Shown here: positions 2,646 to 41,948 of the stretch, one piece after another
Position numbering within the stretch: the stretch's first letter is position 1
Layout: every line of letters starts with the position of its first letter
From: Duncaniella freteri
Lineage (GTDB): Bacteria > Bacteroidota > Bacteroidia > Bacteroidales > Muribaculaceae
DNA: 64,000 nucleotides
Assembly (NCBI RefSeq): GCF_004766125.1
Contig: NZ_SJSA01000001.1
Location: 2,108,001-2,172,000, forward strand
Reading direction: 5' to 3'
Position numbers and translations under genes: made by a program
Notes under the pieces: generated by a model
The model's input: the letters and a program-made list of their open reading frames with translations, nothing else
Databases searched by the model: none
What the model was told of the DNA's origin: nothing

Positions 2646-4646
2646 ATGTCTCAGCAAGAGGACGACCTGCGGGCATTGGCTAAAATCATGGATTTAATCC
2701 GTGGTCTTAGCATCCTCGTTGTGGTCACACAAATCTACTGGTACTGCCATAACCTTATCGGCGATTGGGTATTCCATGCCCAGACTATGAAAATCCTTAA
2801 CGGACTTAATGATGCCGGAGGTCTATACAACAACCTATGGAACGCCAAATGGTGGTCCCTTCTATTGTTGGCTCTCTCTTGTTTCGGAACAAAAGGTGTC
2901 AAGAATGAGAAAATCAAGTGGAGGCAGATTTGGATAATCATTGGCATTGGCGGTGTCCTGTTTCTCCTCAACTGGTGGATGATGAGTTTAGGTTGGCAAA
3001 TTACTTACATCGTGACCACAGTTACCGGCTATGTTTGCCTCCTTTTGGGAGGAATATGGATGAGCCGTATGTTGAAAAACAACATGATGGACGACCGTTT
3101 CAACGATGAGAATGAATCATTTCAGCAGGAAACACGCCTGCTTACGAATGACTATTCCATAAACCTTCCCACAAAATTCTACTACAAAAAACGATGGAAC
3201 GAGGGGTGGGTAAACATTGTCAATCCTTTCAGAGCGACAATCGTACTCGGCACTCCCGGTTCCGGTAAGTCATACGCCGTTGTCAACAATTTCATCAAGC
3301 AGATGATTGAGAAAGGGTACTCGCTTTATGTCTATGATTTCAAGAGTCCCGACCTCAGTACCATCGCTTTCAACCACCTGTTGAATCACCTTGACAAATA
3401 CGGAGATGTGGAACCGAAATTCTATATGATAAATTTCGATGATCCGGAGCGCAGCCACCGTTGTAACCCCATTCACCCTGATTTCATGTCAGATATTGCC
3501 GATGCCTATGAGAGCGCATATACCATAATGCTCAACCTTAATAAGTCGTGGGTGCAAAAACAGGGTGACTTTTTTGTCGAATCTCCGATTGTATTGTTCG
3601 CGGCTATCATCTGGTTTCTGCGAATCTATAAAGGCGGACGGTATTGCACATTTCCTCATGCTATTGAGTTTTTGTGCCGCAGATATGAGGATATTTTTCC
3701 GATTCTAACCAGCTATCCGGACTTGGAAAATTACCTGTCGCCATTTATGGATGCTTGGCTCGGAGGGGCAGCGGAGCAGCTTGCAGGTCAGATTGCCTCG
3801 GCAAAAATACCTCTCTCGCGTATGATTTCGCCACAACTCTATTGGGTAATGACCGGCAATGATTTCACTCTTGACATAAACAACCCGAAAGAGCCGAAGA
3901 TTCTATGCGTCGGCAACAATCCTGACCGTCAGAATATCTATGGTGCGGCCCTCGGACTTTACAATTCGAGAATCGTGAAACTAATCAATAAGAAAGGGAT
4001 GTTGAAGTCCGGTGTCATTATAGATGAGCTTCCCACGATATACTTTAAGGGCTTGGATAACCTAATTGCTACGGCCCGAAGCAATAAGGTTGCCGTGTGT
4101 CTCGGTTTTCAGGATTTCTCACAGTTGGAACGTGACTATGGGAAGCCGGAGGCTGCGGTCGTGATGAATACAGTCGGCAATATCTTCTCCGGGCAGGTGG
4201 TAGGTTCGACCGCCAAAACTTTGTCTGAACGCTTTGGTAAGGTGTTGCAGAAGCGGCAGTCAATATCAATCAACCGTCAGGATGTAAGCCACTCATTCAA
4301 CACTCAGATGGACTCGCTTATCCCGCCAAGCAAGATCTCAACGCTCACACAGGGAATATTTGTCGGAGCTGTTTCAGACAACATCGACCAACGCATTGAC
4401 CAGAAGATTTTTCACGCAGAGATTGTCGTGGACAGTAAAAAGGTCAATGCAGAAATGAAAAAATATGTGCCGATTCCAATCCTGACCGATTTCAAAGATA
4501 CCTCGGAGGATAAACACAAGATGAGAGCTGACATTCAGGCAAACTACGACAAAATAAAGCAGGACGTGCGGGATATAGTTGACAATGAGATTGCCCGCAT
4601 AGATGCTGACCCTAAATTGCGACACCTTCTTCAGCAGAAGGGTTGA
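2646..4646 (+). CDS. mobC: type IV coupling protein (VirD4/TraG-like, MobC)
   Basis: This inner-membrane ATPase recruits the relaxase-DNA complex to a secretion channel. The 666-residue protein has N-terminal membrane segments (around residues 20-35, 70-82, 96-113 and 119-138) with the YWYCHNLIGDW motif of the N-terminal domain. The cytoplasmic ATPase carries Walker A GTPGSGKS at 202-209 and a later VIIDELPT Walker B segment. The ATG at 2646 is chosen over an in-frame TTG 12 nt upstream. The stop overlaps the region where the next gene begins. No secretion-channel genes are visible in the window, so the channel must be encoded further left or supplied by another element. Confidence 0.85.
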   Translation: MSQQEDDLRALAKIMDLIRGLSILVVVTQIYWYCHNLIGDWVFHAQTMKILNGLNDAGGLYNNLWNAKWWSLLLLALSCFGTKGVKNEKIKWRQIWIIIGIGGVLFLLNWWMMSLGWQITYIVTTVTGYVCLLLGGIWMSRMLKNNMMDDRFNDENESFQQETRLLTNDYSINLPTKFYYKKRWNEGWVNIVNPFRATIVLGTPGSGKSYAVVNNFIKQMIEKGYSLYVYDFKSPDLSTIAFNHLLNHLDKYGDVEPKFYMINFDDPERSHRCNPIHPDFMSDIADAYESAYTIMLNLNKSWVQKQGDFFVESPIVLFAAIIWFLRIYKGGRYCTFPHAIEFLCRRYEDIFPILTSYPDLENYLSPFMDAWLGGAAEQLAGQIASAKIPLSRMISPQLYWVMTGNDFTLDINNPKEPKILCVGNNPDRQNIYGAALGLYNSRIVKLINKKGMLKSGVIIDELPTIYFKGLDNLIATARSNKVAVCLGFQDFSQLERDYGKPEAAVVMNTVGNIFSGQVVGSTAKTLSERFGKVLQKRQSISINRQDVSHSFNTQMDSLIPPSKISTLTQGIFVGAVSDNIDQRIDQKIFHAEIVVDSKKVNAEMKKYVPIPILTDFKDTSEDKHKMRADIQANYDKIKQDVRDIVDNEIARIDADPKLRHLLQQKG

Positions 4647-4669: not shown

Positions 4670-5125
4670 ATGACTGATAACAATTTTGACAGCCGGGGTT
4701 ATGACCTCGACTACTATAACCTCTTTCTTCGCCGATACCTTTCGGAGCATAGATTCCCGGAAGCGGAGGATGACCTATTTATCGCCAGCCGTTCTGAACA
4801 CGCATACGATGTTTTCGTTGAATCCCGCCTTGCCGGTGACGAGTGGTATATTTCCAATGAAAAAGCAATGGCTGCACTTTACGCAGGATTTGAAATGTCA
4901 CCTTACGATTTCATCAGCGGCCTGTTGCTTGATGAGTTTCAAGACAATATTTCACTTGAAGATGAATCCATTGAGTTTTGGACTTACACATTTATTGATG
5001 AGTTGAAAGATGAATTCAAAGGAATTACTTTGGGCGAAGAATTTTTCAACACTTCCGACGGGGAAGTATTCCGGCTGACGGTTATTGGCCGTATTACCTT
5101 ATTCTTTGAGGAGTATGGCTTATAA
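4670..5125 (+). CDS. DUF1896 family protein
   Basis: A 151-residue acidic protein whose pattern ([49 protein letters not shown]) matches DUF1896. That family is found almost only in Bacteroidetes conjugative elements, next to the large methylase/helicase gene. Its molecular role is not known. ATG 4670 is preferred over the in-frame TTG at 4643 that overlaps the coupling-protein stop. Its 3' end overlaps the next start codon (ATG 5115) by 11 nt, so the two are probably co-translated. Confidence 0.75.
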
Positions 5126-8100
5126 CAGATTACAAACAATGCGCGATAACATCGAGGCTATAAGACTTGCCCTGCGCCTTGATGTTGAACATCGCAATGC
5201 GGAAAATGCCCTTGAAAGGGAGATACTGCGCAAGTATGCCGGGTTCGGAGGACTGAAATGTATCTTGCAGGACGCCAACGAACTTGCCGACGCCGCAAAG
5301 TGGAGCAAGAGCGACATTGAGCTGTTTGCGCCTACGGTTGAACTTCGCCGCCTTATCCACGACTATTCCAAGAATGACAAGGAGTTTGCCGCTTATATGG
5401 ACTCGCTGAAAGCGTCCGTGCTGACGGCTTTCTATACTCCTGAGCCTGTGATTGATGCCATCGCTGATTCGTTGAAGGCTAATGGTATTGAGGTAAAGAG
5501 TCTCCTTGAACCATCTGCCGGACAGGGAGCCTTTGTAGATTCGTTCCTACAACGCTATCCCGGTGCTGAGACATTGGCATTTGAGAAAGATTTGCTGACA
5601 GGCAAAATATTGGCTGCGCTCCATCCCTCAATCTCAACCGAGATAAAGGGCTTTGAGAAGATTGACCCAGATTTTGAGGGATATTTCGACGTGGCAGCGT
5701 CCAATATACCTTTCGGGGACTTTGCGGTTGCCGACCCCCGATATGCCACAAGCAAGGAGATTGCCTACCGTCAGTCAACAAGGGCTATCCACAATTACTT
5801 CTTCTTGAAGTCGCTCGACACCGTGCATGAGGGTGGAATTGTCGCTTTCATTGCCTCACAAGGTGTGATGAATGCCGCCAGCCCCTTTGTGCGCATGGAG
5901 ATGATGCGCCGTGCTGACCTTGTGGGTGCTTTCCGTCTGCCCAACAACACATTCTCAGACAATGCCGGAACGGATGCCGGGTCTGATCTGATTATTCTTC
6001 AGAAGCACACCAACAAGAAAGCGTTGTCGGCTGATGAGGAATTTTTCATCCAGTCAATTGTTGACCGTGACACCAAGGCTCCGAATAATAAATATTTTGC
6101 GGCATTCCCTCAGAATGTTATATGCACAGAGGCTAAAGTTGGCACTGACCAGTTCGGTAAACCGGCTATCATCTACAAACATGAGGGCGGTGTCGATGGT
6201 ATTGCCAGCGATATGCGCAAGGCACTCCATGAATCGCTGAAAATGCGCCTAAATCTGGACTTCTATAATAATAGGAGTCTAACACCGCCAACACCTGAGT
6301 CTGTTAAGCGTTCTACCGAAAACAAGGTAGAAAAGCCAAAGCGCATAGCGGATACCCCGTTGATGCAGCAATATCGGGAAATGAAGAAGAAACATCCCGA
6401 TGCCATTCTCCTTTTCCGTGTAGGAGATTTCTATGAGTGTATGGGCGTTGATGCCGTCAAAGCGTCGGAGATACTGGAAATAACCCTGACCAGACGTCGC
6501 AACGGCAAAGCCGACAGTATAGAACTGGCAGGTTTTCCGCACCATGCCCTTGACACCTATCTCCCCAAGCTCGTAAGGGCAGGTCAGCGTGTGGCTATCT
6601 GTGAACAGCTTGAAGATCCAAAGCAGAAACAAAAGGAGGAATATAAGCCTACGGAGATTATAACGCCGCCACCGACGGTTGAACCAAAACCGGCTCCCGC
6701 TCCTGTTGAACCAGTAAAGGAGATTGAAACTGACGGTGGACCCGACTTCAACGACAATCCCGACCCGCGTCTGTTTGCCTACAATCTTTTTGGAGAGCTG
6801 GAACCATTGCAAAAACCGAAGCGTCAGCCACGACAGCCAAAGACCGAGGAAGATAAGCCGAGGCCTACTACCAAAATCCAGATTTCCGATGAGCAGGTAA
6901 AGAAATTCCGTCCACTATCTGATAAGGAGCTGGAATTTTATGGTTCTCTTGATTGGGAAACCAATCCGCCAATCAATGGATTCTACGAGACAATGATGTC
7001 GATTGCCCATCGTCAGCTTGCTGAAATGGAGGCGGAACGTCAGGCGATGGAAGCAACCAAGAAGGAAACCATTACCGAAGACGGCACTATTATCGAAATA
7101 TCAAAAGGTGATTTTGTTCCGAAGCCAAGAGTGGCAGCGGAAGCACCCAAACCGGCTGAACGTGATATGTCTCCCCGTCCTTTCTCGGAGGATATTCAGT
7201 TCTTCCACCACAATGGCAGTATGGTCGTGGACAAGGGGCAGGTCGGTTTTCTCTCGGAAGTACGCAAAAATGGCGCGACATTCTCACCGCTCACTCTTAA
7301 ACCGGAACAGGAGAAACGAGCCATGCTCTATATCACGCTGTCGGAAACTTATCAGCAATTATACCATTTTGAGGCTGAGACGCATGAGGAAAATGCAGAT
7401 ATGCGCGAACACCTCAATCAGTATTATGATGAATTTATAGACAGATACGGCAACCTCAACGAGAAACAGAATGTAAAATTCATACTCATGGACGCAAACG
7501 GGCGTGATTCGTTGGCTCTGGAGCGTGGCGAGAATGGTCATTTTGTCAAAGCTGACATCTTTGACCACCCGGTATCATTTGCCGTTGATGAGGTTACATC
7601 AGTTGATACCTCGATGGAGGCATTGACAGCTTCACTCAATAAATTTGGAGAGGTCAACCTCGAATATATGGGCAGTCTTGTTGATATGGAGCAGGAGGCG
7701 ATGATTGACAGCCTTGCCGGACACATATATTATAATCCGCTCGTGTCAAACTTTGAGATTGCCGACCGCTTCATCGCCGGTAATGTAGTGCAGAAAGCCG
7801 AGAAGGTCAAGGAGTGGGTTAACCGCGAGGAAGAACGCATCAAGGATTTTCCCGGCTTTGACGGCGTTGAACCGTTCATTGACTTGTCGAAAGAATCATT
7901 GAAAGCGTTGGAGGAAGCCATTCCCCGAAAGATTACTTTCGATGAACTGGACTTCAATTTCGGTGAACGCTGGATTCCAACCGGAATATACTCCGCTTAT
8001 ATGAGTCACCTATATGGCACTGAAGTTAATATAGCCTATTCTTCATCAATGGACGAGTATTCCTGTGATGCCCGTCACAAGAATATGAAGATTTGGGAGG

Positions 8101-9119
8101 AGTTCTGTGTCAGAGGTTATTATCGTGTATATGACGGCATGAGCCTTCTCAAACACGCCCTGCACAACACAGTGCCGGACATCAAGAAGTCTATTGGCAA
8201 GGATGAGAATGGCCACGACATAAAAGTCCCCGACAGTGAGGCAATCCAACTCGCCAACACCAAGATTGATGAAATCCGTAATGGATTCTCGGACTGGCTG
8301 GAGGCTCAATCGCAGGAGTTCAAGGATAGACTTGTTGATTTGTATAACAGCAAGTTCAACTGCTACGTCAGACCTCATTATGACGGCTCACATCAGAAGT
8401 TTCCCGACCTCAACATGAAACTGTTGGGCGACCGCTACCATATCAATTCCGTATATCAGTCACAGAAGGATTGCGTATGGATGCTGATTCAGAACGGTGG
8501 AGGAATATGCGACCATCAGGTGGGCACGGGCAAGACCCTGATAATGTGCATGGCGGCTCATGAGATGAAACGTCTCGGATTGGTGAATAAACCGATGATT
8601 ATCGGAATGAAAGCCAATGTTGCGGAAATTGCCATGACTTATCAGACAGCCTATCCCAATGCCCGTATCCTCTATGCGGATGCCAAGAGTTTCACAGCAG
8701 CAAACCGCGTGAACTTCTTCAACCAGATCAAGAACAACGACTATGACTGTATCATAATGTCGCACGACCAGTTCGGCAAGATACCGCAGTCTCCGGAGAT
8801 GCAACAGCAAATCCTTCAATCCGAACTTGACACTGTTGAGGAGAATCTTGAAGTCATCAAGCAGCAGGGACACGACATTTCGCGTGGTATGCTCAAAGGT
8901 CTGTTGAAGCGTAAGGAGAACCTCACCGCCAAGATAACCACCATACAGTATCAGATGGAACAGTCCAAGGACAGTGTTGTTGACTTCAAACAGATGGGCA
9001 TCGACCATATTTTCGTTGACGAGAGCCATTATCAGAACTTTTATGAATTTCCTAAATTTCGCATCAAGTTGCTGATTCTTATTTTGTTGCATTTTAATAT
9101 AGTTCGGATTATTTATTGA
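5115..9119 (+). pseudogene. N6-methylase/helicase megaprotein, 5' part, interrupted by a RIT element
   Basis: This is the N-terminal two thirds of a protein of about 2,000 residues. An N6-adenine methylase-like domain comes first (motif [12 protein letters not shown] at 130-140, catalytic-type NIPF at 197-200). A MutS domain I-like insert at about 412-505 retains the FYE mismatch-wedge motif. A long charged linker leads to a SNF2-type helicase core with Walker A (HQVGTGKT near 1136) and Walker B DESH at about 1302-1305. After DESH (about 9029) the reading frame enters the left inverted repeat of the RIT element and ends at 9119 with about 30 foreign residues. The rest of the protein resumes at about 12538. 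Such proteins are conserved cargo of Bacteroidetes conjugative elements, but their function is undefined. The broken form lacks the second helicase lobe. Confidence 0.85.
9027..9054 (+). repeat. left terminal inverted repeat of the RIT element
   Basis: CATTATCAGAACTTTTATGA (9027-9046) followed by ATTTCCTA. The reverse complement is at 12476-12503 with a single mismatch at position 21. It begins directly after the GAGAGC codons of the helicase DESH motif. Confidence 0.9.
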
Positions 9120-9176
9120 GTGAGTTGTTATGAAATGAGGCATTGTACTTATTACAAGCACAATACCCCACATTCG

Positions 9177-10226
9177 TCATTTATGCAAACCCAAGAAAAC
9201 CTCAAGTTCCATTTTACCTTTTGCCGATTTCCATTTCTTACCAACGCACCTCTGGTTTTCATCCTCAAGCGTTTCCAATGCTTTTTCCTCTTGTTCGGTA
9301 GTTATGTCAAGATATACCATTGTCGTTTGGATATTCTCATGCCCAAGCAAATAAGAGATTTGGGCAATGTTCATGCCGTTTTCAAGCCAATGGGATGCTT
9401 TGGCGTGCCTGAACTGATGCGCATGTATGTCCAAAGGAACGTCACTACATTTGCCATGCGCCATCTTTGCGTACCTTTTCAGCATTTTATTAACATTTTC
9501 CGCAGACATGGGTGTGTATATACCTCTGCTTTTTGAACTGAAGAGTAATGCTTCAGCATCGCCAGGATTAGGATGATACTCGGTAAGGTATTTCTTCAAA
9601 TATTGAACAGGCTTTGCCAGAAGAGGTATTGGGCGTCTCTTTCGTCCTTTTCCTATGACAATTATGTGAGGCTTTGCGCAGTCCATGGTAATATTGCAAA
9701 TCTTCAGCGTCAAAAGCTCATTGATGCGCACGGCAGTCGAATACAGAAGAAGCAGAAGCGTGTAATCACGAAAACCAATGGCGGTTCTTTGGTTTGGCAT
9801 GGATAAAAGCGTGTCAACAGCCAACTTGCTGAGCCCGATCACTTTCCTTTTTGGAGTTTTTTCATTCGGCACATTCTCCGCCTGCAGGAACACTGAAACG
9901 AATGATATGTCATTATCTGATAGGTATTTCAGAAAAGCGCGCAAGGCGGACAATCTCACATTGCAGGTTGCCGGGCTACAGTTACGGACTTTTTTCATCC
10001 AAACAATCCACTCCTCAATGTTTTTCTTGCAAAAGCAATCAGCATTCAACGTTTCGGGCGTTATGCCTTTTACCGTTCTGAGGAACTCTGCATAAAGCGT
10101 CATGGAAACATGGTAGTTTCTTAGGGTATGTCGGCTGCACGCCTTGATGGAAGGCACATGGTGTTCAAGCCAGTCATGCAGGCACGCGGCAATCTGCATG
10201 GCCTGTGGGTTAATCTTCTTTTTCAT
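9177..10226 (-). CDS. ritC: tyrosine recombinase RitC
   Basis: Third gene of the trio, 349 residues. An N-terminal SAM-like core-binding domain is followed by a catalytic domain with the full set of residues: R167 (STAVRINELL), K193 (IGKGRKRR), H270 and R273 (HAHQFRHAKA), H296 (LLGHENI) and nucleophile Y305 (TTMVYLDI). Its start overlaps the end of ritB by 17 nt, so the three are probably translated as a coupled unit. The function within the trio is inferred from RIT elements elsewhere, where the three recombinases are thought to act together in transposition. Confidence 0.85.
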   Translation of the reverse strand: MKKKINPQAMQIAACLHDWLEHHVPSIKACSRHTLRNYHVSMTLYAEFLRTVKGITPETLNADCFCKKNIEEWIVWMKKVRNCSPATCNVRLSALRAFLKYLSDNDISFVSVFLQAENVPNEKTPKRKVIGLSKLAVDTLLSMPNQRTAIGFRDYTLLLLLYSTAVRINELLTLKICNITMDCAKPHIIVIGKGRKRRPIPLLAKPVQYLKKYLTEYHPNPGDAEALLFSSKSRGIYTPMSAENVNKMLKRYAKMAHGKCSDVPLDIHAHQFRHAKASHWLENGMNIAQISYLLGHENIQTTMVYLDITTEQEEKALETLEDENQRCVGKKWKSAKGKMELEVFLGLHK

Positions 10227-11166
10227 AATCGTCTTGCGTTAATTGTTGGCTGATTTCATTGTCGGTACACGCCATTATGTCCGAAATCGCCGGAGTCAAA
10301 GAGTAGTAAGCCAATGTACTTTCTATTTGCCTGTGCCCCATACTCTTGCTTAGAGCCAGTAATTTGTCATGTACGGCAAATCCTTGGTGTGTCCAGCTGT
10401 TTATGTTCTCTATGGCGTAGTTGTGCCTTAGTTCGTATGGGATTGCGCGGGATGAATTGCAGCTTTGCCACAGCACCCTGAAGTGGTACGTTACCCATAC
10501 AGGAGGGTGCGGCTTGTCATCCGGTGTCGGGAAAAACACCCTACGGTTCGGAATCAGCCCATCTATTTTTCCGTCATAAGTACGCATCAGGGGCAACATT
10601 GTGTCATGGAGGACTACATAATGCTGGTCATACCCTTTGCCACGTTTGATGGATACCACGCCATTTTCAAGGTTTACGTCATCGCGTTCCAGCAGGATGG
10701 CCTCGGTTGTCCTTATTCCTGAACTGTACAGTAAACGGAAGAACACCGGCAGTGTCATGCGCTGGATGGCCGCGAGTCTGCCACGCCTTGGCTTTATGTT
10801 GTCGCAAGCGTCAAAGAAGCGTTTCAATTCATAGTGTGTAAAAGGATGCGGCGTATAAGTCCTCGGCACAGACCTTGGCACTTGCGGCAAGTCAATTTTC
10901 GTCATTCCACGCTTGTTCATGTACTTGATGAAGTCTAAGACAGGATAGACACGTGACACGCAGGAGTTTGTGCATTCAGTCGGACGTTGCCTGCACCATC
11001 TGTCCACGATTTCTTGGGTAAGCTCAGTTTGTCCCGGATATTCCCTTGCGCAAAAATGATCGAACAGTATTACGTTCTTGACATAGCTATGGCTGTTACG
11101 CCCGGAAGCCTTGCGGTATTTTACATACCCTTCTATAGCGTTGGATAGGAATGAAATAGTTTTCAT
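10210..11166 (-). CDS. ritB: tyrosine recombinase RitB
   Basis: Middle gene, 318 residues. Catalytic-domain residues are R152 (YSSGIRTTEA), K174 (SIKRGKG), R247 (PYELRHNYA), H278 (MGHRQIE) and Y287/Y288 (LAYYSLTP). The first histidine of the usual HxxR box is a tyrosine (Y244 in YELR), a substitution that many active family members tolerate. The ATG overlaps the ritA stop in an ATGA arrangement at 11163-11166. It is the shortest of the three, as in known RIT trios. Confidence 0.85.
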   Translation of the reverse strand: MKTISFLSNAIEGYVKYRKASGRNSHSYVKNVILFDHFCAREYPGQTELTQEIVDRWCRQRPTECTNSCVSRVYPVLDFIKYMNKRGMTKIDLPQVPRSVPRTYTPHPFTHYELKRFFDACDNIKPRRGRLAAIQRMTLPVFFRLLYSSGIRTTEAILLERDDVNLENGVVSIKRGKGYDQHYVVLHDTMLPLMRTYDGKIDGLIPNRRVFFPTPDDKPHPPVWVTYHFRVLWQSCNSSRAIPYELRHNYAIENINSWTHQGFAVHDKLLALSKSMGHRQIESTLAYYSLTPAISDIMACTDNEISQQLTQDDYEKED

Positions 11167-12374
11167 ACGTCAAACACCCCCTTTCCTACGGGAAAGTATT
11201 CTATGCTCAATGAACATTCCTTCAGCCTCTTGAATTCCGCACTAAGGTAGCGGTCGAGAGAATCCGGGGACGCATGACCGAGGGTGGCACTTATGACAGG
11301 TTGCTGCACACCGCCCTGTAACAGGGCCGTTGCCACATTGTGGCGGAACAGATGCAGACTCTTTCTCTCATTTTCACCTTGTCTTATTCCTGCTTTGCAC
11401 ATGACTTTTGAGCATATAGCATCGAGATTGCTTGTATGAAGCCTTCTGTATGGCACCTGTACTGTGAGAAAAACATATGGTTCCGGGCTTCGGGGACGTT
11501 CTTTGAGCAGGTAATCAAATACAGCGTTTCCTACCACGGCACGGAGTGGCAATGTCAGGGGCTGTCCCGTCTTTGCCTGAGTGATTTTTATCAGGTCGTG
11601 TTCCCAATCGAAGCTGTCAAGCGTGAGTGCAGAGATGTCACATCCACGCAATCCCGTGTACATGGCCAAGGTTATGATGGCTTTGTCCTGTAGAGATATT
11701 GTGCTATCGTGTTCTAAAGTATGCCTGATAGCAGTCAGTTCTTGCTCCGTAAGGTATTGAATGTTTTTCCGCATATTGGGTATGGACGGCAGGTATGCGA
11801 TTATACGTTCAACGGATTTGCCATAGTGAGGCAAACAGGCTTTCAGCCCATATTCCACCGAATATTTGAGCGAATGGCCCATTTTCGGTTTTATGTCTTT
11901 GGAAAACACTTCTAATACCGCATCTTCTGTTATTGATTCGAATGAGTACACTCCCATTTCCTGTAGCCGGAAGAAGAACGAAGATAGCGCATACTTCACA
12001 TTTATTGAAAATTTGCAACGTCTGTCTACCATGTTGAAAGCCATGTCCGTTACATCCTTGTATTCTGCGCCGAGCAACTCATAGTGGTGAGGCTTGCTGT
12101 AGTGTTTGCAACCATCGGGTAATAATCCATTCTCAATGTATTGGCAGATTACACGCAACAGGCGTACCTTGTTCCTGTAGGTATACTTGTTGGACCACAA
12201 TTCTTTTAATGTCGGTTCAACGTCGGAGAAACTCTGCCATTTATAATGGTTAGCATTTTCCGATAGCCACTCAGCCATTTTCTTCACATAGCCTATGTAC
12301 ATGGCTGAATAACCGGTTTCTTGTAAATAAGAAACAAGCCCCTCGACTTTTTCATTCAGATTAAATATGTCCAT
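11163..12374 (-). CDS. ritA: tyrosine recombinase RitA
   Basis: First gene of the trio, 403 residues. The N-terminal 200 residues form a long core-binding region. The catalytic domain has R243 (YTGLRGCDIS), K268 (QAKTGQP), H341 and R344 (LHLFRHNVA), H367 (LGHASPD) and Y376 (DRYLSAE), a complete active site. The start is about 100 nt inside the right inverted repeat, and that AT-rich gap must hold the promoter for all three genes. A further partial copy of the repeat core (ATCAGAACTGTTTA, 12421-12434) lies in the gap and may be a recombinase binding or autoregulatory site. Confidence 0.85.
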   Translation of the reverse strand: MDIFNLNEKVEGLVSYLQETGYSAMYIGYVKKMAEWLSENANHYKWQSFSDVEPTLKELWSNKYTYRNKVRLLRVICQYIENGLLPDGCKHYSKPHHYELLGAEYKDVTDMAFNMVDRRCKFSINVKYALSSFFFRLQEMGVYSFESITEDAVLEVFSKDIKPKMGHSLKYSVEYGLKACLPHYGKSVERIIAYLPSIPNMRKNIQYLTEQELTAIRHTLEHDSTISLQDKAIITLAMYTGLRGCDISALTLDSFDWEHDLIKITQAKTGQPLTLPLRAVVGNAVFDYLLKERPRSPEPYVFLTVQVPYRRLHTSNLDAICSKVMCKAGIRQGENERKSLHLFRHNVATALLQGGVQQPVISATLGHASPDSLDRYLSAEFKRLKECSLSIEYFPVGKGVFDV

Positions 12375-12475
12375 AATCGCATCTTGTTTAAAAGTTATTC
12401 TACAATTATGACGGAATATAATCAGAACTGTTTACGGATCAAAACAAATGATTACTAAATAATTGAGTAATTTAA

Positions 12476-12503
12476 TAGGAAACTCATAAAAGTTCTGATA
12501 ATG
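12476..12503 (-). repeat. right terminal inverted repeat of the RIT element
   Basis: TAGGAAAC followed by TCATAAAAGTTCTGATAATG (12484-12503), the reverse complement of 9027-9054 with one mismatch. Confidence 0.9.
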
Positions 12504-12505
12504 TG

Positions 12506-12529
12506 ATAAATCCGGAATTTTGGATTTAT
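12506..12529. repeat. lox-like palindrome at the right boundary of the RIT element
   Basis: Perfect 8-bp arms ATAAATCC and GGATTTAT surround the 8-bp spacer GGAATTTT. This is the architecture of a tyrosine recombinase crossover site. It lies 2 bp outside the right inverted repeat and before helicase coding sequence resumes. No equivalent is seen at the left end. A role as attachment core is inference. Confidence 0.45.
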
Positions 12530-12537
12530 GTCAGTGT

Positions 12538-14676
12538 TTCAAGAATCTGATGTTCAATACCAGACATGACCGTGTGGCTGGACTTGGCAACTCCGAAGGA
12601 AGCCAACGCTCACTGAATCTTCTCTATGCCATCCGTACCATCCAAGAGAGGACCGGGCGCGATTTGGGTGCGACTTTTCTCAGCGGCACCACAATCTCCA
12701 ACTCATTGACGGAGTTGTATCTCCTGTTCAAGTATCTGCGGCCGAAAGAACTTGAAAGGCAGGAGATCCGGTGTTTCGACGCATGGGCGGCAATCTTCGC
12801 CAAGAAGACAACCGACTATGAGTTCAATGTCACCAACAGCATTGTAGCAAAGGAAAGATTCAGATACTTCATAAAGGTTCCGGAGTTGGCGGCTTTTTAT
12901 AATGAGATAACGGATTATAGAACCGCACAGGATGTTGGTGTTGACCGACCGGAGAAGAACGAGATTCTTCACAATATCCCGCCCACGCCTCAACAGGAGG
13001 AGTTTATCCAGAAACTAATGGAGTTTGCCAAAAGCGGTGATGCCACAATATTGGGTCGTGCGCCATTGTCTGACACTGAGGAGAAGGCGAAGATGCTCAT
13101 CGCCACAGATTATGCAAAGAAGATGGCTCTTGACATGAGAATGATTGACCCCAATTATTCTGATGACCCGAACAATAAGGCGAGCCACTGTGCCAAGATG
13201 ATTGCCCAATACTACCATAAGTATGACGCTCAGAAAGGCACACAGTTTGTATTCAGCGATTTAGGAACTTACAAGCCGGGCGAATGGAACATATACTCTG
13301 AGATCAAGCGTAAATTGATTGAGGATTATGGTATTCCTCCGCATGAGATAAGGTTTATCCAAGAGTGCAAGACTGAGCGGTCACGAAAGGCTGTCATTCA
13401 GGCTATGAATGACGGCGATGTGCGGGTGCTTTTCGGCTCAACCTCCATGTTGGGAACTGGCGTAAACGCCCAAAGGAGAGCTGTCGCTGTCCATGAATTG
13501 GAATGCCCGTGGCGTCCGAGCGACCTCGAACAACGCGAGGGTCGCGCTATCCGTGCCGGCAACGAGATTGCCAAACTGTATGCTGATAATAAGGTGGATG
13601 TGATTATCTACGCGGTTGAGAAGTCTTTGGACTCCTACAAGTTCAATCTTCTTCATTGCAAGGCTACGTTCATAAACCAACTTAAAAGTGGTGCATTGGG
13701 AGCGCGAACAATCGACGAGGGTTCTATGGACGAGAAGAATGGCATGAATTTCTCTGAGTACATGGCTATCCTATCCGGCAACACCGACCTGCTCGATAAG
13801 GCAAAACTTGAAAAACGGATAGCGGCGTTGGAGAGTGAACGAAAGTCGTTCAACAAGGGACGTGGCGATTCCGAGTTCCGGCTCCAGACCATAACCCATG
13901 ACATTGCCAACAACGAGGCGGCAATAGAGCGGATGAAAGCCGACTGGGAACGTTACGACAAAGTGGTGCAGCATGACAAGGATGGCAACCCAATCAACAA
14001 TCTCACGATTGACACCTGTAACCTCTCCGATGAGAAGAATATGGGTATCCACCTGCAAGGTCTGGCACAACGTACAGACACCCACGGACAATATCAGCGT
14101 GTGGGCGAGGTCTATGGCTTCCCAATCAGCATTATCTCTGAAAGAGTATTGACTGACGGCGTTGAGAAAGTGCAGAACCGCTTTGTTGTCGAGGGCAACT
14201 ACAAATATAAGTACAACAACGGCCAGTTGGCGATGGCTGACACCCACGCCGCCTGCATGAACTTTGTCAATGCTCTGGAGAAAATCCCCGGCATAATCGC
14301 CCAGTACGAGGAACGTACCGCCAAACTCAAAGCGGATGTTCCCATACTTGAAGGCATTATGGCTAAGACATGGGGCAAGGAGGACGAGTTGAAGCAGTTG
14401 AAATCCGAACTTGCAGCTCTTGACCGCAAAATCGCCGCTGAATTAGCACCTAAGCATGAGAACAAGGAGGACGGCGAGGAGGTAAAGCGAGAGGATTCTC
14501 CTCACACTGTCCAGACAATTGATGCGCCGACACCGGACACAGACAATAAAAAGTCAATGGTCGCGGAGCCAACCACCACATACAAAGAACGGGAACCGTT
14601 AAGTTCCCGCATCATTATCGGTGGTTGTGGCGTAACTCCCCCCGGAGGTTTCCGAGCTGCCGGTCCCAAATTGTAG
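12538..14676 (+). pseudogene. N6-methylase/helicase megaprotein, 3' part
   Basis: Continuation of the interrupted megaprotein, about 712 residues from [15 protein letters not shown] onward. It includes helicase motif III-like [11 protein letters not shown] and the C-terminal RecA-like lobe ([24 protein letters not shown]). The motif VI arginine finger region is [12 protein letters not shown] coiled-coil-rich tail ends in RAAGPKL. An ATG at 12520 lies in the junction DNA, so a separate C-terminal polypeptide could in principle be made, but it would lack the ATP-binding lobe. Joined to the 5' part, without the insertion, the protein would be about 2,018 residues. Confidence 0.85.
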
Positions 14677-29991: not shown

Positions 29992-31893
29992 ATGAAAAAA
30001 ACAGTCATATTTTTAGGTCTCATATCGGCTCTGAATGTTTCAGCCGAGACTGCGGATTACACCCAGTACGTCAATCCGCTCATGGGTACCCAGTCGTCAT
30101 TCGAACTGTCGACCGGCAACACTTATCCTGTGATAGCACGTCCGTGGGGCATGAACTTCTGGACCCCTGTTACCGGAAAAATGGGTGATGGCTGGCAGTA
30201 CACATATGACGCCTACAAGATACGTGGTTTCGAGCAGACCCATCAGCCGAGCCCTTGGATAAATGATTACGGTCAGTTTGCCATAATGCCTGTGACCGGC
30301 AGTGCCAAATTCAATGAGGATGATCGCGCGAGCTGGTTCTCCCACAAGGCAGAGGAGGCTCGTCCCTATTACTATAAAGAATATCTCGCAGATCATGATG
30401 TGGTGGCGGAAATGACACCCACCGACCGTGCTGCAATGTTTCGTTTCACATTCCCTGAGAATGACTCATCGTTCGTTGTGGTCGATGCCTATGACCGCGG
30501 GTCGGCAATCAGGATAATCCCCGAGAAGAACAGGATAGTGGGATACACCACCCGCAACAGTGGGGGAGTCCCTGAAAATTTCAGGAATTATTTTGTGGTG
30601 GAGTTCGACAAGCCGTTCACTTATTGCGCCACATTCTCCAACGACACCGTGCCCTCCAAGCCTGACGGTACTGCCGGCATATCATTGAAGCCCGGGGTGC
30701 TTGAGCAGGAGAATTTCCATACAGGTGCGCTGATAGGGTTCAGGACCGGAAAGGGTGAGAGGGTGCATGCTCGCGTGGCATCGTCGTTCATAAGTCCCGA
30801 ACAGGCTGAACTGAATCTTAAGGAGCTGGCGGACCGTGATTTTGACAAGCTTGTATCCGATAACAGACAGGCGTGGAACGATGTGCTCGGACGTGTTGAG
30901 ATCGAGGATGACTCCAATAACGACCGTCTGCGCAACTTCTATTCATGCCTTTACCGCTCGCTTCTTTTCCCGAGAAAATTCTATGAGATAGATGCCTCCA
31001 GCAAGGTGGTGCACTACAGCCCCTATAACGGCGAGGTGAAACCTGGATACATGTACACTGATACAGGTCTGTGGGATACGTTCCGCAGTGCCACTCACGA
31101 TATCGCCTGTGACGGTGTGTATATGAGTGAACTTTCCAATTCCGAGCAGTCAAAGTACATAGGCTGGCAGGGAGGATTCTACAATATCGCCAAGATTGTC
31201 GGCACAGGGCTTCTGGTGTATCTTGCCGGTGTCATCATCCGCTATGCCGGCGGTGACGCCTCCGGAGCATTGCCTGAGACTGTCCGCAATGCCAACCGTA
31301 TAGGATGGAGCTGGGTCATGGCTCTTGTGGGAGCTATCATGCTTATTATCGGTGTGTACCATATATTTGTGCTACCATCGGGTGGGACGAAGGATTGCCG
31401 CAAGGAGCGTTCGGCAAGCGACGTTGCGCGCGAGCTTACCACTGTGCTTGGCGAGTTCTTCCGAAAGAAACATATATGGTATTGTCTGACATTCAATATA
31501 CCGTTTGTGGTCTATGCTGTACTTGCTTATTTCCAGCCTACCGGCGGAGTAATAATATCGGCGGGCATCATTCTTGAGTATTTCGGATACGGATTCGGAT
31601 TTGTCGGTCTTACCCTGTTCATGATGCAACAGGTGGCTCCCGGAAAGCATCAGATGGCTCACTATGCTTTTGCTTCCGGAATAATGAATTTCGGGGTGAT
31701 GCTTCCCGGTATGCTCAGCGGATGGGTGTGCAATATGCTGGGTGGCTACACGTTGTTCTTTATAGTAGTGACTATACTTACGATAGTCCCGCCTCTTGTC
31801 ACATATTTTGTTCCGTTCAAGTATAATGATGATGGCTCGCTGATCGCTCCGGCGGTGGATGGGGCTCTCACCCAAGGTGAAGGGACAGAGTGA
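29992..31893 (+). CDS. in-frame chimera: GH92 N-terminal domain fused to MFS transporter C-terminal part
   Basis: The 633-residue ORF begins as a secreted GH92 protein (signal peptide; YVNPLMGTQ; reads as GH92 through TGLWDTFR at about residue 365). It then continues without a frame change as the C-terminal two thirds of a sugar MFS permease ([21 protein letters not shown], then eight or so hydrophobic helices, ending at 31893). The GH92 half lacks the catalytic C-terminal domain and the permease half lacks its first helices, so neither function is expected. The junction lies near 31081-31095. A deletion between a GH92 gene and a neighbouring MFS gene, or an assembly join, would explain it. 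Confidence 0.8.
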
Positions 31894-39638: not shown

Positions 39639-40361
39639 TTAATGATTTTTTCTGAGACTGTCGCCTTTTAGCTCAAAACGTATCGCTGAGTGCACCATCC
39701 GGTCGAGTATGGCGTCGGCGGCGGTGGTGTTTGTCTCCAGACAGTCGTACCAGTCGGAGACGGGGATTTGCGAGGCTATGATTGTCGCCTTGCGGCCGTG
39801 GCGGTCCTCGATGATCTCCATAAGGTCGAGTATCTGCTCGTTGTTGAGTTTCTTGATTCCGAAGTCGTCGATTATGATCAGGTCGTAAGAGGCTATCTTC
39901 TCGAAGAGCCTCTTGGTCTGACGCTCGACTCTTGCCATGGCGAGGTCTTCCATGAGTTTGAGGATGCTCCAGTAGCGGGTCTTGAAGCCGGATATGCAGG
40001 CATGATGTCCGAGGGCCGATGCGAGCCAGCTTTTGCCCGTGCCGGTGGCTCCGGTTATGATCACAGGAATGCCGCGCCTGATGTATTCGCCGGCACACAT
40101 CTGGGTGATGTATGCTTTGTCAAGACCACGCGCAGAGTCGTATGCGAGTTCGTCGACTGACACCTGATAGCGGAACCGGGCGTTTTTGAGAAGCCGGGCA
40201 TTCCGGTTTGCCCGGCGCATGTCGTGTTCTCCCTGAAGGAGAAGACGGAGTCCGTCCACGATGTTGAGTGAAGTTGCCTGACGTGTTTCCATCAGGCTCT
40301 GCCATGTCTGCGCCATTCCCGGAAGGCGCATCTGTCGGAGTTCAGAAAGGATTCTTTCCAT
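39639..40361 (-). CDS. istB: IS21 helper ATPase IstB
   Basis: This AAA+ protein assists target choice and strand transfer by IstA. The 240-residue protein has the DnaC-like architecture, with Walker A GATGTGKSWLASALG near residue 105 and Walker B LIIIDDFGI near 168. It is downstream of istA with a 33-nt gap and reads in the same direction. No frameshift or internal stop is seen. Confidence 0.93.
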   Translation of the reverse strand: MERILSELRQMRLPGMAQTWQSLMETRQATSLNIVDGLRLLLQGEHDMRRANRNARLLKNARFRYQVSVDELAYDSARGLDKAYITQMCAGEYIRRGIPVIITGATGTGKSWLASALGHHACISGFKTRYWSILKLMEDLAMARVERQTKRLFEKIASYDLIIIDDFGIKKLNNEQILDLMEIIEDRHGRKATIIASQIPVSDWYDCLETNTTAADAILDRMVHSAIRFELKGDSLRKNH

Positions 40362-40394
40362 TGATTGTGTTGTTTTTATGTAAATGGTGGATTA

Positions 40395-41948
40395 TTATGC
40401 GAAAGCCGCTTTTCCGCGGATGTTGGAGTGATTTCCGGGAGGCGTCAGTTCATCGGCGTTCTCACGGAAGCCCTCGCATTGTGTCTTGATGAGAGCCTTG
40501 ACGAACCTGTAGCGCAGATTGCCGTGGCAGACGGCTATGGTACATGCCTGACGGAACAGGGCCGGGTCGCTGTCGCGTTGGAGACTGAAGAAGCCCTGGG
40601 CAGTGCGGAAGTATACCTGTTCGGGCTGTCCTCCGGCGAATATGGCCTCTATTATTGTCTTGAACTCGGGGCTGATGCGTTCGGCTTTGGATATGAAGTA
40701 CTCGGCGCTGTATGCGCGGTATTCCCTTGATTTTGGAGGAAGGTGCTCCTCGACATAGGTGTAGTCGTTGCGGCGGTATGAGCGCATGTGTGTGGCCACG
40801 CATTCTCCCGAGTGATATACGCGTACCTGCGTGGCTGTGAAGGTGACATCCACCTGCTGCCCGATCAGACGGTAAGGCACGGAGTATGAGTTGCGGTTCG
40901 CCCCGAAGGTGATGAAGCTGTTCGGGGCCACCTTCAGTGTGGCGCGGCGTTTGAACTCGAACGGAGCCTGCGGTAGCGGAGCCAGCATCGGTTTCTCGGA
41001 GGCCAGGAAGCACTCACGCCGCGAGTAATCGCAGCCGGTCAGCCGCTTCTGGTTATAGCGGTCGACAAGCTCAGCGACTGCCTCGTTTAGTTCTTCCAGA
41101 GAGTGGAAGATGCGGTTGCGCAGCGGGGCGTAGATATGACGGTAGGCCTTGTTGACGGCATCCTCGACCAGAGCCTTGTCCTTGGGCTTGCGAACTCTCG
41201 CGGGCTGTGCCACACACAGATAGTGGTTGGCAAGGTCGTTCATGCCTGTAGTCAGGTCAGGTTCGTAGGAATCGGCCTTCTTGACCGCCGATTTCAGATT
41301 GTCAGGCACCAGTATCTTCGGGACACCTCCGAAAAACTCCAGAGCCCTGACCGTGGCCATCAGAAACTGCTCTATCCCCTGTGACCGCACGCACATGACA
41401 AAAGTCATGCCCGAGTACGGCATTATGGCCACATACGTCTCCACAAACACCTCCTCCCCTGTGTCAGTGTCAATATACGACAGACGGTCCCCGGCAAAGT
41501 CAATCAGCATCTTCTGTCCCGGCTGATACAGGTCGCGAAGTAACGTCGAGGGAGTGACCGCTTTCATATGCTGGGATATGTGATAGCGGAACTGCGACAG
41601 GCTGTAGCCGTCGGGGTGATCTCTGCGGTATTCCTCCCATAACAGCTGCGATGTGACATGCGGTTTTTTCAGTTCTTTCTCCAAAGCGGGCAGAAGTTCC
41701 TTCAGAACTTCCATCCGCTCATCGCAATACGCCGGGCTGCCCCCGTTGAAACGGTGGTTCAGAACCGTGTCCTCCAGCGCTATAAGTTCGCGTGTCGTAA
41801 GAGGGTCCGCCTCAGCTATCGACTTGTAGCGGCTGACTGTGTTCTTGCTGATATGGAGCGCTGAAGCAATTGAACGGATCGATTCCTTTTGCGACAGGCG
41901 TATCAGCACCTGCTTGATGATATTCATGCTTATCGGTTGTGTTGCCAT
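40395..41948 (-). CDS. istA: IS21 transposase IstA
   Basis: This DDE-type transposase has 517 residues. An N-terminal helix-turn-helix (SIRSIASALHISKNTVSRYKS) is followed by an RNase H-fold rve domain, whose first catalytic aspartate is in MLIDFAGDRLSYID. Later conserved segments include VPDNLKSAVKKAD and a C-terminal beta-barrel region. The start is just inside the right-end repeats. The gene is complete, so the element could be active. Confidence 0.93.
   Translation of the reverse strand: MATQPISMNIIKQVLIRLSQKESIRSIASALHISKNTVSRYKSIAEADPLTTRELIALEDTVLNHRFNGGSPAYCDERMEVLKELLPALEKELKKPHVTSQLLWEEYRRDHPDGYSLSQFRYHISQHMKAVTPSTLLRDLYQPGQKMLIDFAGDRLSYIDTDTGEEVFVETYVAIMPYSGMTFVMCVRSQGIEQFLMATVRALEFFGGVPKILVPDNLKSAVKKADSYEPDLTTGMNDLANHYLCVAQPARVRKPKDKALVEDAVNKAYRHIYAPLRNRIFHSLEELNEAVAELVDRYNQKRLTGCDYSRRECFLASEKPMLAPLPQAPFEFKRRATLKVAPNSFITFGANRNSYSVPYRLIGQQVDVTFTATQVRVYHSGECVATHMRSYRRNDYTYVEEHLPPKSREYRAYSAEYFISKAERISPEFKTIIEAIFAGGQPEQVYFRTAQGFFSLQRDSDPALFRQACTIAVCHGNLRYRFVKALIKTQCEGFRENADELTPPGNHSNIRGKAAFA

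Follow-up and report, generated by a model that had tools for sequence, protein, structure and literature searches.

The stretch of DNA analysed here (the window; 64,000 bp, G000:C1:2108001-2172000, where G000 is the genome of Duncaniella freteri and C1 its contig 1) contains a conjugative element, one gene of which, encoding a large MutS-I/helicase protein, is interrupted by a recombinase-in-trio (RIT) element. The 3,477-bp RIT core, with three recombinase genes, breaks the helicase frame at position 9027, in the motif II codons D-E-S, and comparison with an uninterrupted homologue (locus L026) gives a net insertion of 3,505 bp, corresponding to window positions 9029-12533. The parts of the interrupted gene and of the insertion are as follows, the term tag being used for four bases at a junction.

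5085..9028, plus strand: N-terminal part of the helicase (MutS domain I, motif I, motif II to D-E-S), from the open reading frame (ORF), domain matches and the uninterrupted relative L026
9023..9026, plus strand: left 4-bp tag GAGC, consisting of the third base of the Glu codon and the Ser codon of the host gene; the same in the empty site L026
9027..9054, plus strand: ritC-side terminal inverted repeat, its outer CA common to the target
9177..10226, minus strand: ritC-like tyrosine recombinase, 349 aa (ORF and Phage_integrase match)
10210..11166, minus strand: ritB-like tyrosine recombinase, 318 aa (17-bp overlap with ritC; Phage_integrase match)
11163..12374, minus strand: ritA-like tyrosine recombinase, 403 aa (4-bp overlap with ritB; Phage_integrase match)
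12476..12503, plus strand: ritA-side terminal inverted repeat
12504..12507, plus strand: inner tag TGAT, which read outward from the palindrome is ATCA, the same four bases as in the left flank of the second contig-1 copy
12508..12527, plus strand: 20-bp palindromic module AAATCC-GGAATTTT-GGATTT
12528..12533, plus strand: outer tag ATGT, then CA; not the host's own, as the empty site L026 has GAGC-CA
12534..14676, plus strand: C-terminal part of the helicase (remaining lobe 1 with motif III, lobe 2), from the ORF and a domain match

The three tyrosine recombinase genes are adjacent, run in one direction and overlap slightly (by 4 and 17 bp), in an element of about 3.5 kb (3,477 bp) with 28-bp repeats and a 20-bp end palindrome. 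The terminal inverted repeats, at 9027-9054 and 12476-12503, are complementary at 27 of 28 nt (96%). By eye, the first and third recombinases have the full catalytic set R..HxxR..H..Y, and in the middle one (318 aa) Y replaces the first His of the set; the labels RitA, RitB and RitC follow gene order and length only. A preliminary description of this DNA had noted three overlapping recombinase genes with complete or nearly complete active sites between 28-bp repeats (27/28), which the ORFs and the Phage_integrase matches confirmed. It had also located the insertion in the right place, but the 4-bp tag, the 20-bp palindrome and the second 4-bp tag on the right side belong to the insertion as well. 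The recombinase genes alone fill the space between the repeats, where the four-gene set of SE and GInt elements, with Tfp/GinC and Srap/GinD, is lacking, and an intein is contradicted by a host frame that closes at 9119 and by element genes on the opposite strand. Judged on its sequence, the window element is a RIT by all features examined, while its target rule and the grammar of its tags are without a description in the literature searched.

The left helicase frame (5085-9119) reads ...HIFVDESH, enters the repeat and stops at 9119. One ORF split at a motif II 'DESH' had been described; the split does fall at D-E-S and L026 reads through it, but the H of 'DESH' derives from the repeat, and DESQ, the reading of L026, was most likely the native motif here. 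In such helicases, motif II and motif III (SGTT) are both part of lobe 1, and therefore the cut lies within lobe 1, not between the two helicase lobes as had been thought. In Pfam, the right piece gives only a weak match to SNF2-rel_dom (positions 159-259 of 290; 23.1 bits versus a cut-off of 24.9). The RIT splits the helicase of an integrative and conjugative element (ICE), and inactivation is predicted because motif II is separated from motif III and lobe 2.

The 3,477-bp core is present three times in G000 with zero differences: in the window (copy W), on contig 2 (copy L9, locus L009) and once more on contig 1 (copy L10, locus L010). Each copy occupies a different helicase paralogue at the same D-E-S codons, with the RIT of L10 reversed, and the helicase right halves at L9 and L10 share 86% and 84% protein identity with that of the window. 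In helicase orientation, the junctions read:

W: GTTGACGA-GAGC-CATTATC[..]GATAATG-TGAT-AAATCCGGAATTTTGGATTT-ATGT-CAGTGTTTC
L9: GTTGATGA-GTCG-CATTATC[..]GATAATG-CGAC-AAATCCGGAATTTTGGATTT-GTCG-CAGAACTTC
L10 (RIT reversed): GTGGACGA-ATCA-CATTATC[..]GATAATG-ACAT-AAATCCAAAATTCCGGATTT-GAGC-CACCAGTTC

At each of the three, the left tag combines the last base of the Glu codon with the Ser codon of D-E-S. All three long helicase right halves in G000 follow a RIT, and no further right half of comparable length was found in this genome, just a fragment in a 306-aa frame (74%) and two weak matches of 31%. The fragment, at G000:C1:1779311-1780147, is a remnant of a fourth helicase copy. The preliminary description missed the main point, namely, the recurrent use of this site as a target, three times in G000 and by related elements elsewhere.

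Uninterrupted sites were found in relatives. L026, from another genome of the same genus (2056-aa frame), reads GTTGACGA-GAGC-CA-GTGTTTCAAG at the site, which equals the flanks of W without the insert, and L028, from the same family (2059-aa frame), reads GATGA-GTCG-CA-GAACTTCAAG, which equals the flanks of L9 without the insert. Both match these flanks exactly around the tag, at an overall DNA identity of 92-98% (identical bases: L026 versus the window, left 1411/1494 and right 3567/3642; L028 versus L9, left 1382/1494 and right 1966/2038). Altogether, nine loci are uninterrupted at the site, seven of them reading DESHQFKNL (L027, L029, L030, L031, L047, L048, L050) and two DESQ[CN]FKNL; L049, reading DECHIFKNL, is also uninterrupted. 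Homologues that carry the recombinase trio at this point, or that end at DESH, had been named as evidence that would overturn the idea of an insertion, and the homologues at these nine loci and L049 do neither. For L10, no empty counterpart was found. Identical copies at three sites, together with empty sites in relatives, would imply that the RIT has moved.

Close relatives of the RIT were collected by a RitA-alignment scan of a species-genome collection, from which 80 loci were kept. RitA identity was at least 49% at L086-L091, where the contig of L090 ends at the repeats and has no flank. The flanked loci of this group all sit in the same helicase (5/5): L086 (Bacteroidaceae IMSAGC_004), L087 (a Bacteroidales metagenome-assembled genome, isolate Lapin-011), L088 (Mediterranea An20), L089 (Bacteroides xylanisolvens XB1A) and L091 (Parabacteroides bouchesdurhonensis), the last having decayed, with neither ritB nor ritC matched in full. 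The elements of L086 and L087 are identical to that of the window at 3458/3477 bases, and the L086 helicase is just 37-49% identical in aligned pieces despite its near-identical element. The genomes of L089 and L091 each hold a further long helicase frame (1957 and 1940 aa), exceeding the interrupted left half, and full occupation is therefore a feature of G000 and not a rule. The pattern GATAATG-N4-AAATCC-N8-GGATTT-N4-CA was found in 2 of 393 order genomes, as three copies in G000 and one in G659, only at RITs, and a reversed control pattern gave zero matches in the same genomes. In viral_contigs, the same pattern picked out one record, L170, in this helicase and with a RitA of 69%. With three sites in G000, five flanked relatives and L170, nine insertion sites of the RIT and its close relatives thus lie at the same helicase codons, while L094 (RitA 44%) sits in a coupling-protein gene.

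A DNA search of 197 other related genomes for RIT copies gave no close copy, with short matches of 68-90% in 3. A RitA search of 397 family genomes, G000 among them, gave matches in 380, mostly weak recombinase matches, and the best ones other than the G000 copies reached 37-38% identity, so that this search did not enter the counts; in a plasmid collection, 565 records matched, all at <60% identity. Among the close relatives, L089 (10307-13416) and L088 (10307-13459) have three extra genes that separate ritC from the far repeat. Those of L089 match TIR_2, ThsB_TIR, TIR and SLOG (LD_cluster2), a Thoeris-like defence cargo, and those of L088 are similar by eye. In L170 (7678-9681), a short ritB (157 aa) stands beside a recombinase-like ORF (443 aa), with a further nested insertion being possible.

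The palindrome lies between the RIT and the helicase right half in W, L9, L10, L086, L087, L089, L091 and L170. This side is constant regardless of the orientation of the RIT, L10 and L089 being inserted one way and the other six the opposite way. These data suggest that the RIT likely moves as a circle and undergoes site-specific integration at the DNA of helicase motif II (D-E-[S/C]-[H/Q]), a reading to which we assign a probability of roughly 0.8. Each junction would then be composed of a left-type half-site, an NNNN-CA overlap and a right-type half-site, the left-type half-site being the host left flank or either palindrome arm and the right-type half-site being the host right flank or either inverted repeat. 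The circle, arranged as repeat-tag-palindrome-tag-repeat, would carry two attachment sites in opposite direction, so that the choice of attachment site would set the orientation and the palindrome would always come to lie on the same host side (the right side for the helicase). At the repeat that is used, four bases of the host would take the place of the adjoining tag, and the old tag would stay at the far junction, an exchange of the kind reported for Tn554 and SE elements. NNNNCA is a plausible 6-bp overlap, and the RIT tags fit SE/GInt chemistry.

Tags carried along in this way (passenger tags) may record previous insertions. The ten junction sets, of which L088 gives two, contain 20 passenger tags, and 20/20 consist of [A/G] followed by a codon for Ser or Cys, compared with an expectation of 16/256 for random four-mers and with 30/528 for four-mers before CA inside the element. 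The RIT copies are not independent, and the set of distinct tags is the fairer count: 7/7 fit (AAGC, ATCA, ATCG, ATGT, GAGC, GAGT, GTCG). Because passenger tags spell the third base of Glu plus Ser or Cys, the previous hosts, too, probably were DE[S/C] helicases, and the tags support travel from helicase to helicase. Furthermore, the circle expected from L10 has exactly the two passenger tags of W, each at the correct end, and a circle from an L086-like copy has those of L10; a pedigree from an L086-like copy via L10 to W is, on the tags, only suggestive. An inversion of the chromosome through homologous recombination of the two contig-1 copies was considered as a source of the shared tags and rejected, as such an event would pair left with left and right with right, and each copy has one proper half of either kind.

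One more distant RIT follows a like pattern at another target. This RIT, of Salegentibacter sp. oa5 (RitA 40%), accounts for five of the 80 loci, identical between the repeats, and four of these (L102, L105, L106, L107) share one common target, with L105 reversed. Its palindrome AAAATCCAAACGTTTGGATTTT differs from that of the helicase group and is constant on one target side, and the inner and outer tags of L102 and L105 are exchanged, as the circle model predicts. The target, P-R-I-H-D-L/R-H-T-F-A-V with the break at the slash, is the HxxR box of a tyrosine recombinase, and the L105 flank matches Phage_integrase. The inner tag ACCT is not obviously Leu-Arg, and the tag-coding rule is therefore shown for the helicase group only. 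No solo palindromes beyond the four occupied sites were found in the Salegentibacter genome.

Boundaries were surveyed at the 36 of the 80 loci with placeable ends, with targets called by flank translation:

ICE helicase DE[S/C], 4 loci: L086, L087, L089, L091
Tyrosine recombinase HxxR box, 15 loci: L097, L098, L099, L102, L103, L105, L109, L119, L122, L125, L128, L129, L134, L137, L142
Tyrosine recombinase LGH box, 1 locus: L116
ArdC-type zincin, 5 loci: L133 and L135 at HE/xxH; L136, L138 and L146 before EEL[VI]AE
PcfK, 1 locus: L123
Mutator-type transposase, 1 locus: L110
Coupling protein, 1 locus: L094
Y1 transposase, 1 locus: L145
TnpV-like, by eye, 2 loci: L127, L131
No assignable target, 5 loci: L104, L117, L132, L144, L155

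By this translation, 31/36 loci lie in genes of mobile-element type and 25/36 in a recognizable catalytic motif, mostly HxxR; L102, L103 and L105, all from one genome, do not count as independent, and six of the 15 HxxR assignments were made by eye (L097, L102, L119, L128, L137, L142). Pfam was run on 20 flank pieces of the surveyed loci. Ten pieces from nine loci match Phage_integrase, and 10/10 break at profile positions 123-133 of 172; the L137 flank matches HTH_38 and not Phage_integrase. The ArdC pieces match ArdcN and MPTase-PolyVal (4/4; broken at 51, 51, 75 and 77 of 126), with L136 assigned by eye, whereas the Y1_Tnp match stays below threshold (20.7 versus 23 bits). The flank of L104 matched methyltransferases, and this RIT may lie outside the gene. 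At the TnpV-like loci, it is the N-terminal side that carries the palindrome, and the side is therefore fixed per target type and not by coding direction.

The other 44 of the 80 loci comprise L106 and L107, whose flanks are the same as those of L102, L088, which was treated apart, and 41 that were scanned. In most of these 41, the contig ends at or near the element or no element end is recognizable; L101, L108, L112, L113, L143, L148, L151 and L152 have candidate ends and were not counted. By reading, the target of L101 resembles a recombinase after the box, that of L112 a recombinase LGH box and that of L108 PcfK, and L113, L143, L148, L151 and L152 could be given no target. L151 has a palindrome-like repeat on both sides, with two different truncated frames (6246-6845 and 10698-10829), one of which is similar by eye to the IstB-like ORF at window positions 39639-40361.

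Active sites that look complete or nearly so would also suit a RIT that acts as a reversible switch, in which precise excision restores the helicase in part of the population. A leftover helicase-derived tag would still encode Glu-Ser or Glu-Cys, so that excision would keep frame and motif, and for GInt elements the sections of the source used here describe an empty site restored in some strains (PMC5385486). We regard such a switch, which the preliminary description had raised and for which no support was found, as unlikely, however: the three long helicase copies in G000 are all occupied, the uninterrupted copies being in other genomes; solo palindromes that could be excision scars were sought in G000 by pattern, which was found only at the three RITs; and SE elements, and some GInts likewise, leave no empty site according to the portions consulted (PMC10214605, PMC5385486). 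Instead of moving on their own, the copies could have been spread among related ICEs by gene conversion or homologous recombination, since the helicase genes are related (84-86%, right half) and thus allow recombination across the flanks, and L088 and L103 do resemble recombination products between copies or sites. This spread is difficult, however, to reconcile with one copy being reversed, with tags that differ per copy, with host flanks whose own sequence is preserved as far as the tag, and with near-identical elements in helicases just 37-49% alike; we consider it highly improbable. Even less credit is given to a coincidence or a general hot spot, with a RIT of little target specificity. 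The RIT family as a whole occupies several different genes and L092 is not placeable in a helicase, but nine insertion sites fall at the same codons of one gene family, and the recombinase pieces from distant RITs with a Pfam match all end within the same 123-133 interval (10/10).

Several observations count against circle-mediated integration at motif II. No circle and no excised allele were seen. For the pedigree read from the tags, as many matches as observed were obtained in 763/20,000 shuffles of tag pairs and in 1,450/20,000 shuffles of single tags. The outer junction of L091 is CT, not CA. The 49% limit for RitA was set post hoc, after inspection, and in L092 (RitA 48%) no helicase match occurs in the 6.6 kb upstream; the upstream end of this element was not located and the contig breaks off at the other end just past GATAATG-CGAT, which leaves L092 unplaced. 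L103 has the left half of the HxxR target on both sides without a palindrome, L109 likewise has a host left half on both sides without a palindrome, and L088 has a right half on both sides; these three need a further recombination step, and L088, a draft, may be a misassembly. The reciprocal product of L103 was searched for and not found. Five surveyed loci, moreover, have no assignable target. Independently of these points, L103, L109 and L088 are flanked by like halves of different target genes, as if RITs mediated rearrangements.

Many features of the window element are familiar from other systems. In the parts of PMC3414803 drawn on here, Cupriavidus metallidurans RITs have an inverted repeat, a palindrome, identical copies and nesting in radC of a Tn4371-like ICE and in a transposase gene; three overlapping recombinase genes, their order and lengths, an element length of about 3.5 kb and a 28-29-bp repeat are further likenesses. 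The RIT archetype has recombinases of 315 to 410 aa, and both the mobility of RITs and their choice of target are given as untested, with target specificity 'not formally tested' in Table 1 (sections of PMC10214605); RIT proteins are also treated in PMC8138268, likewise used in part. In the consulted sections of PMC3414803 and PMC10214605, no convincing recombinase site is reported for the known RITs and no target codons, tags or orientation rule are described, and two relatives found here (L088, L089) differ in carrying defence-like cargo. No description of RIT target codons or tag grammar was found among the literature matches listed, Ricker 2013 (Plasmid) being outside the search scope. SE and GInt elements are likewise target-specific tyrosine recombinase elements with a 6-bp overlap: in the parts drawn on, SE elements place a copy of the 6 bp left of the donor at the right end of the new insertion, with no empty site remaining (PMC10214605), and GInts make 6-nt staggered cuts with heteroduplex repair, some being without a detectable empty site (PMC5385486). 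They differ from the RIT in their four-gene sets, with one product lacking a catalytic motif, in having no two-site palindrome described in those sections, and in their targets. Tn554 resembles the RIT in its several tyrosine recombinases, its specific target and the left-flank bases that it carries to a new site (PMC10214605, in part), whereas its TnpABC set, target and ends are different.

The surroundings of the RIT bear out its placement in a gene of a conjugative element, as had been proposed, with relaxase, type IV secretion system coupling protein, DUF1896 protein, sigma-54 type regulator, topoisomerase and integrase genes nearby. In the interrupted protein, the N-terminal half includes a MutS domain I (residues 414-518, counted in the piece that starts at 5115), and a methylase region was recognized by eye. 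Elsewhere in the window, the ORF at 29992-31893 is, by eye, GH92 glycosidase-like at its start and sugar transporter-like at its end and may be a deletion fusion, and an IstB/IstA-like insertion sequence pair, also recognized by eye, occupies 39639-41948 on the minus strand.

Inteins and homing introns occupy codons of the most conserved active-site motifs of host enzymes and splice out, so that the host protein stays functional. The window RIT, in contrast, closes the host frame and is predicted to break the protein. The motif II target works probably because the codons of a catalytic motif are a stretch kept alike among diverged ICEs. Three copies at the same codons, together with relatives in catalytic motifs, lead us to propose that RITs likely home to DNA which is hard for their targets to alter. 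More broadly, and at slightly worse than even odds, RITs may be bacterial catalytic-codon homing parasites of mobile elements, with each lineage reading one invariant motif (DExH of the ICE helicase, HxxR of tyrosine recombinases, HExxH and the downstream Glu of ArdC zincins, the HUH region of Y1 transposases). Two opposed palindrome sites would allow insertion in either direction, and the tags would be a travel log that keeps the target motif coding, so that escape by host mutation would cost the enzyme. What G000 and its relatives offer is a specific attachment site with its empty counterparts, the prediction of a circle and a rule for the exchange of tags. Should the rule apply broadly, a whole class of nested elements, some with defence-like cargo, would have the conserved catalytic codons in enzymes of mobile elements as landing pads, and RIT tags would let the history of their hops be read from sequence.

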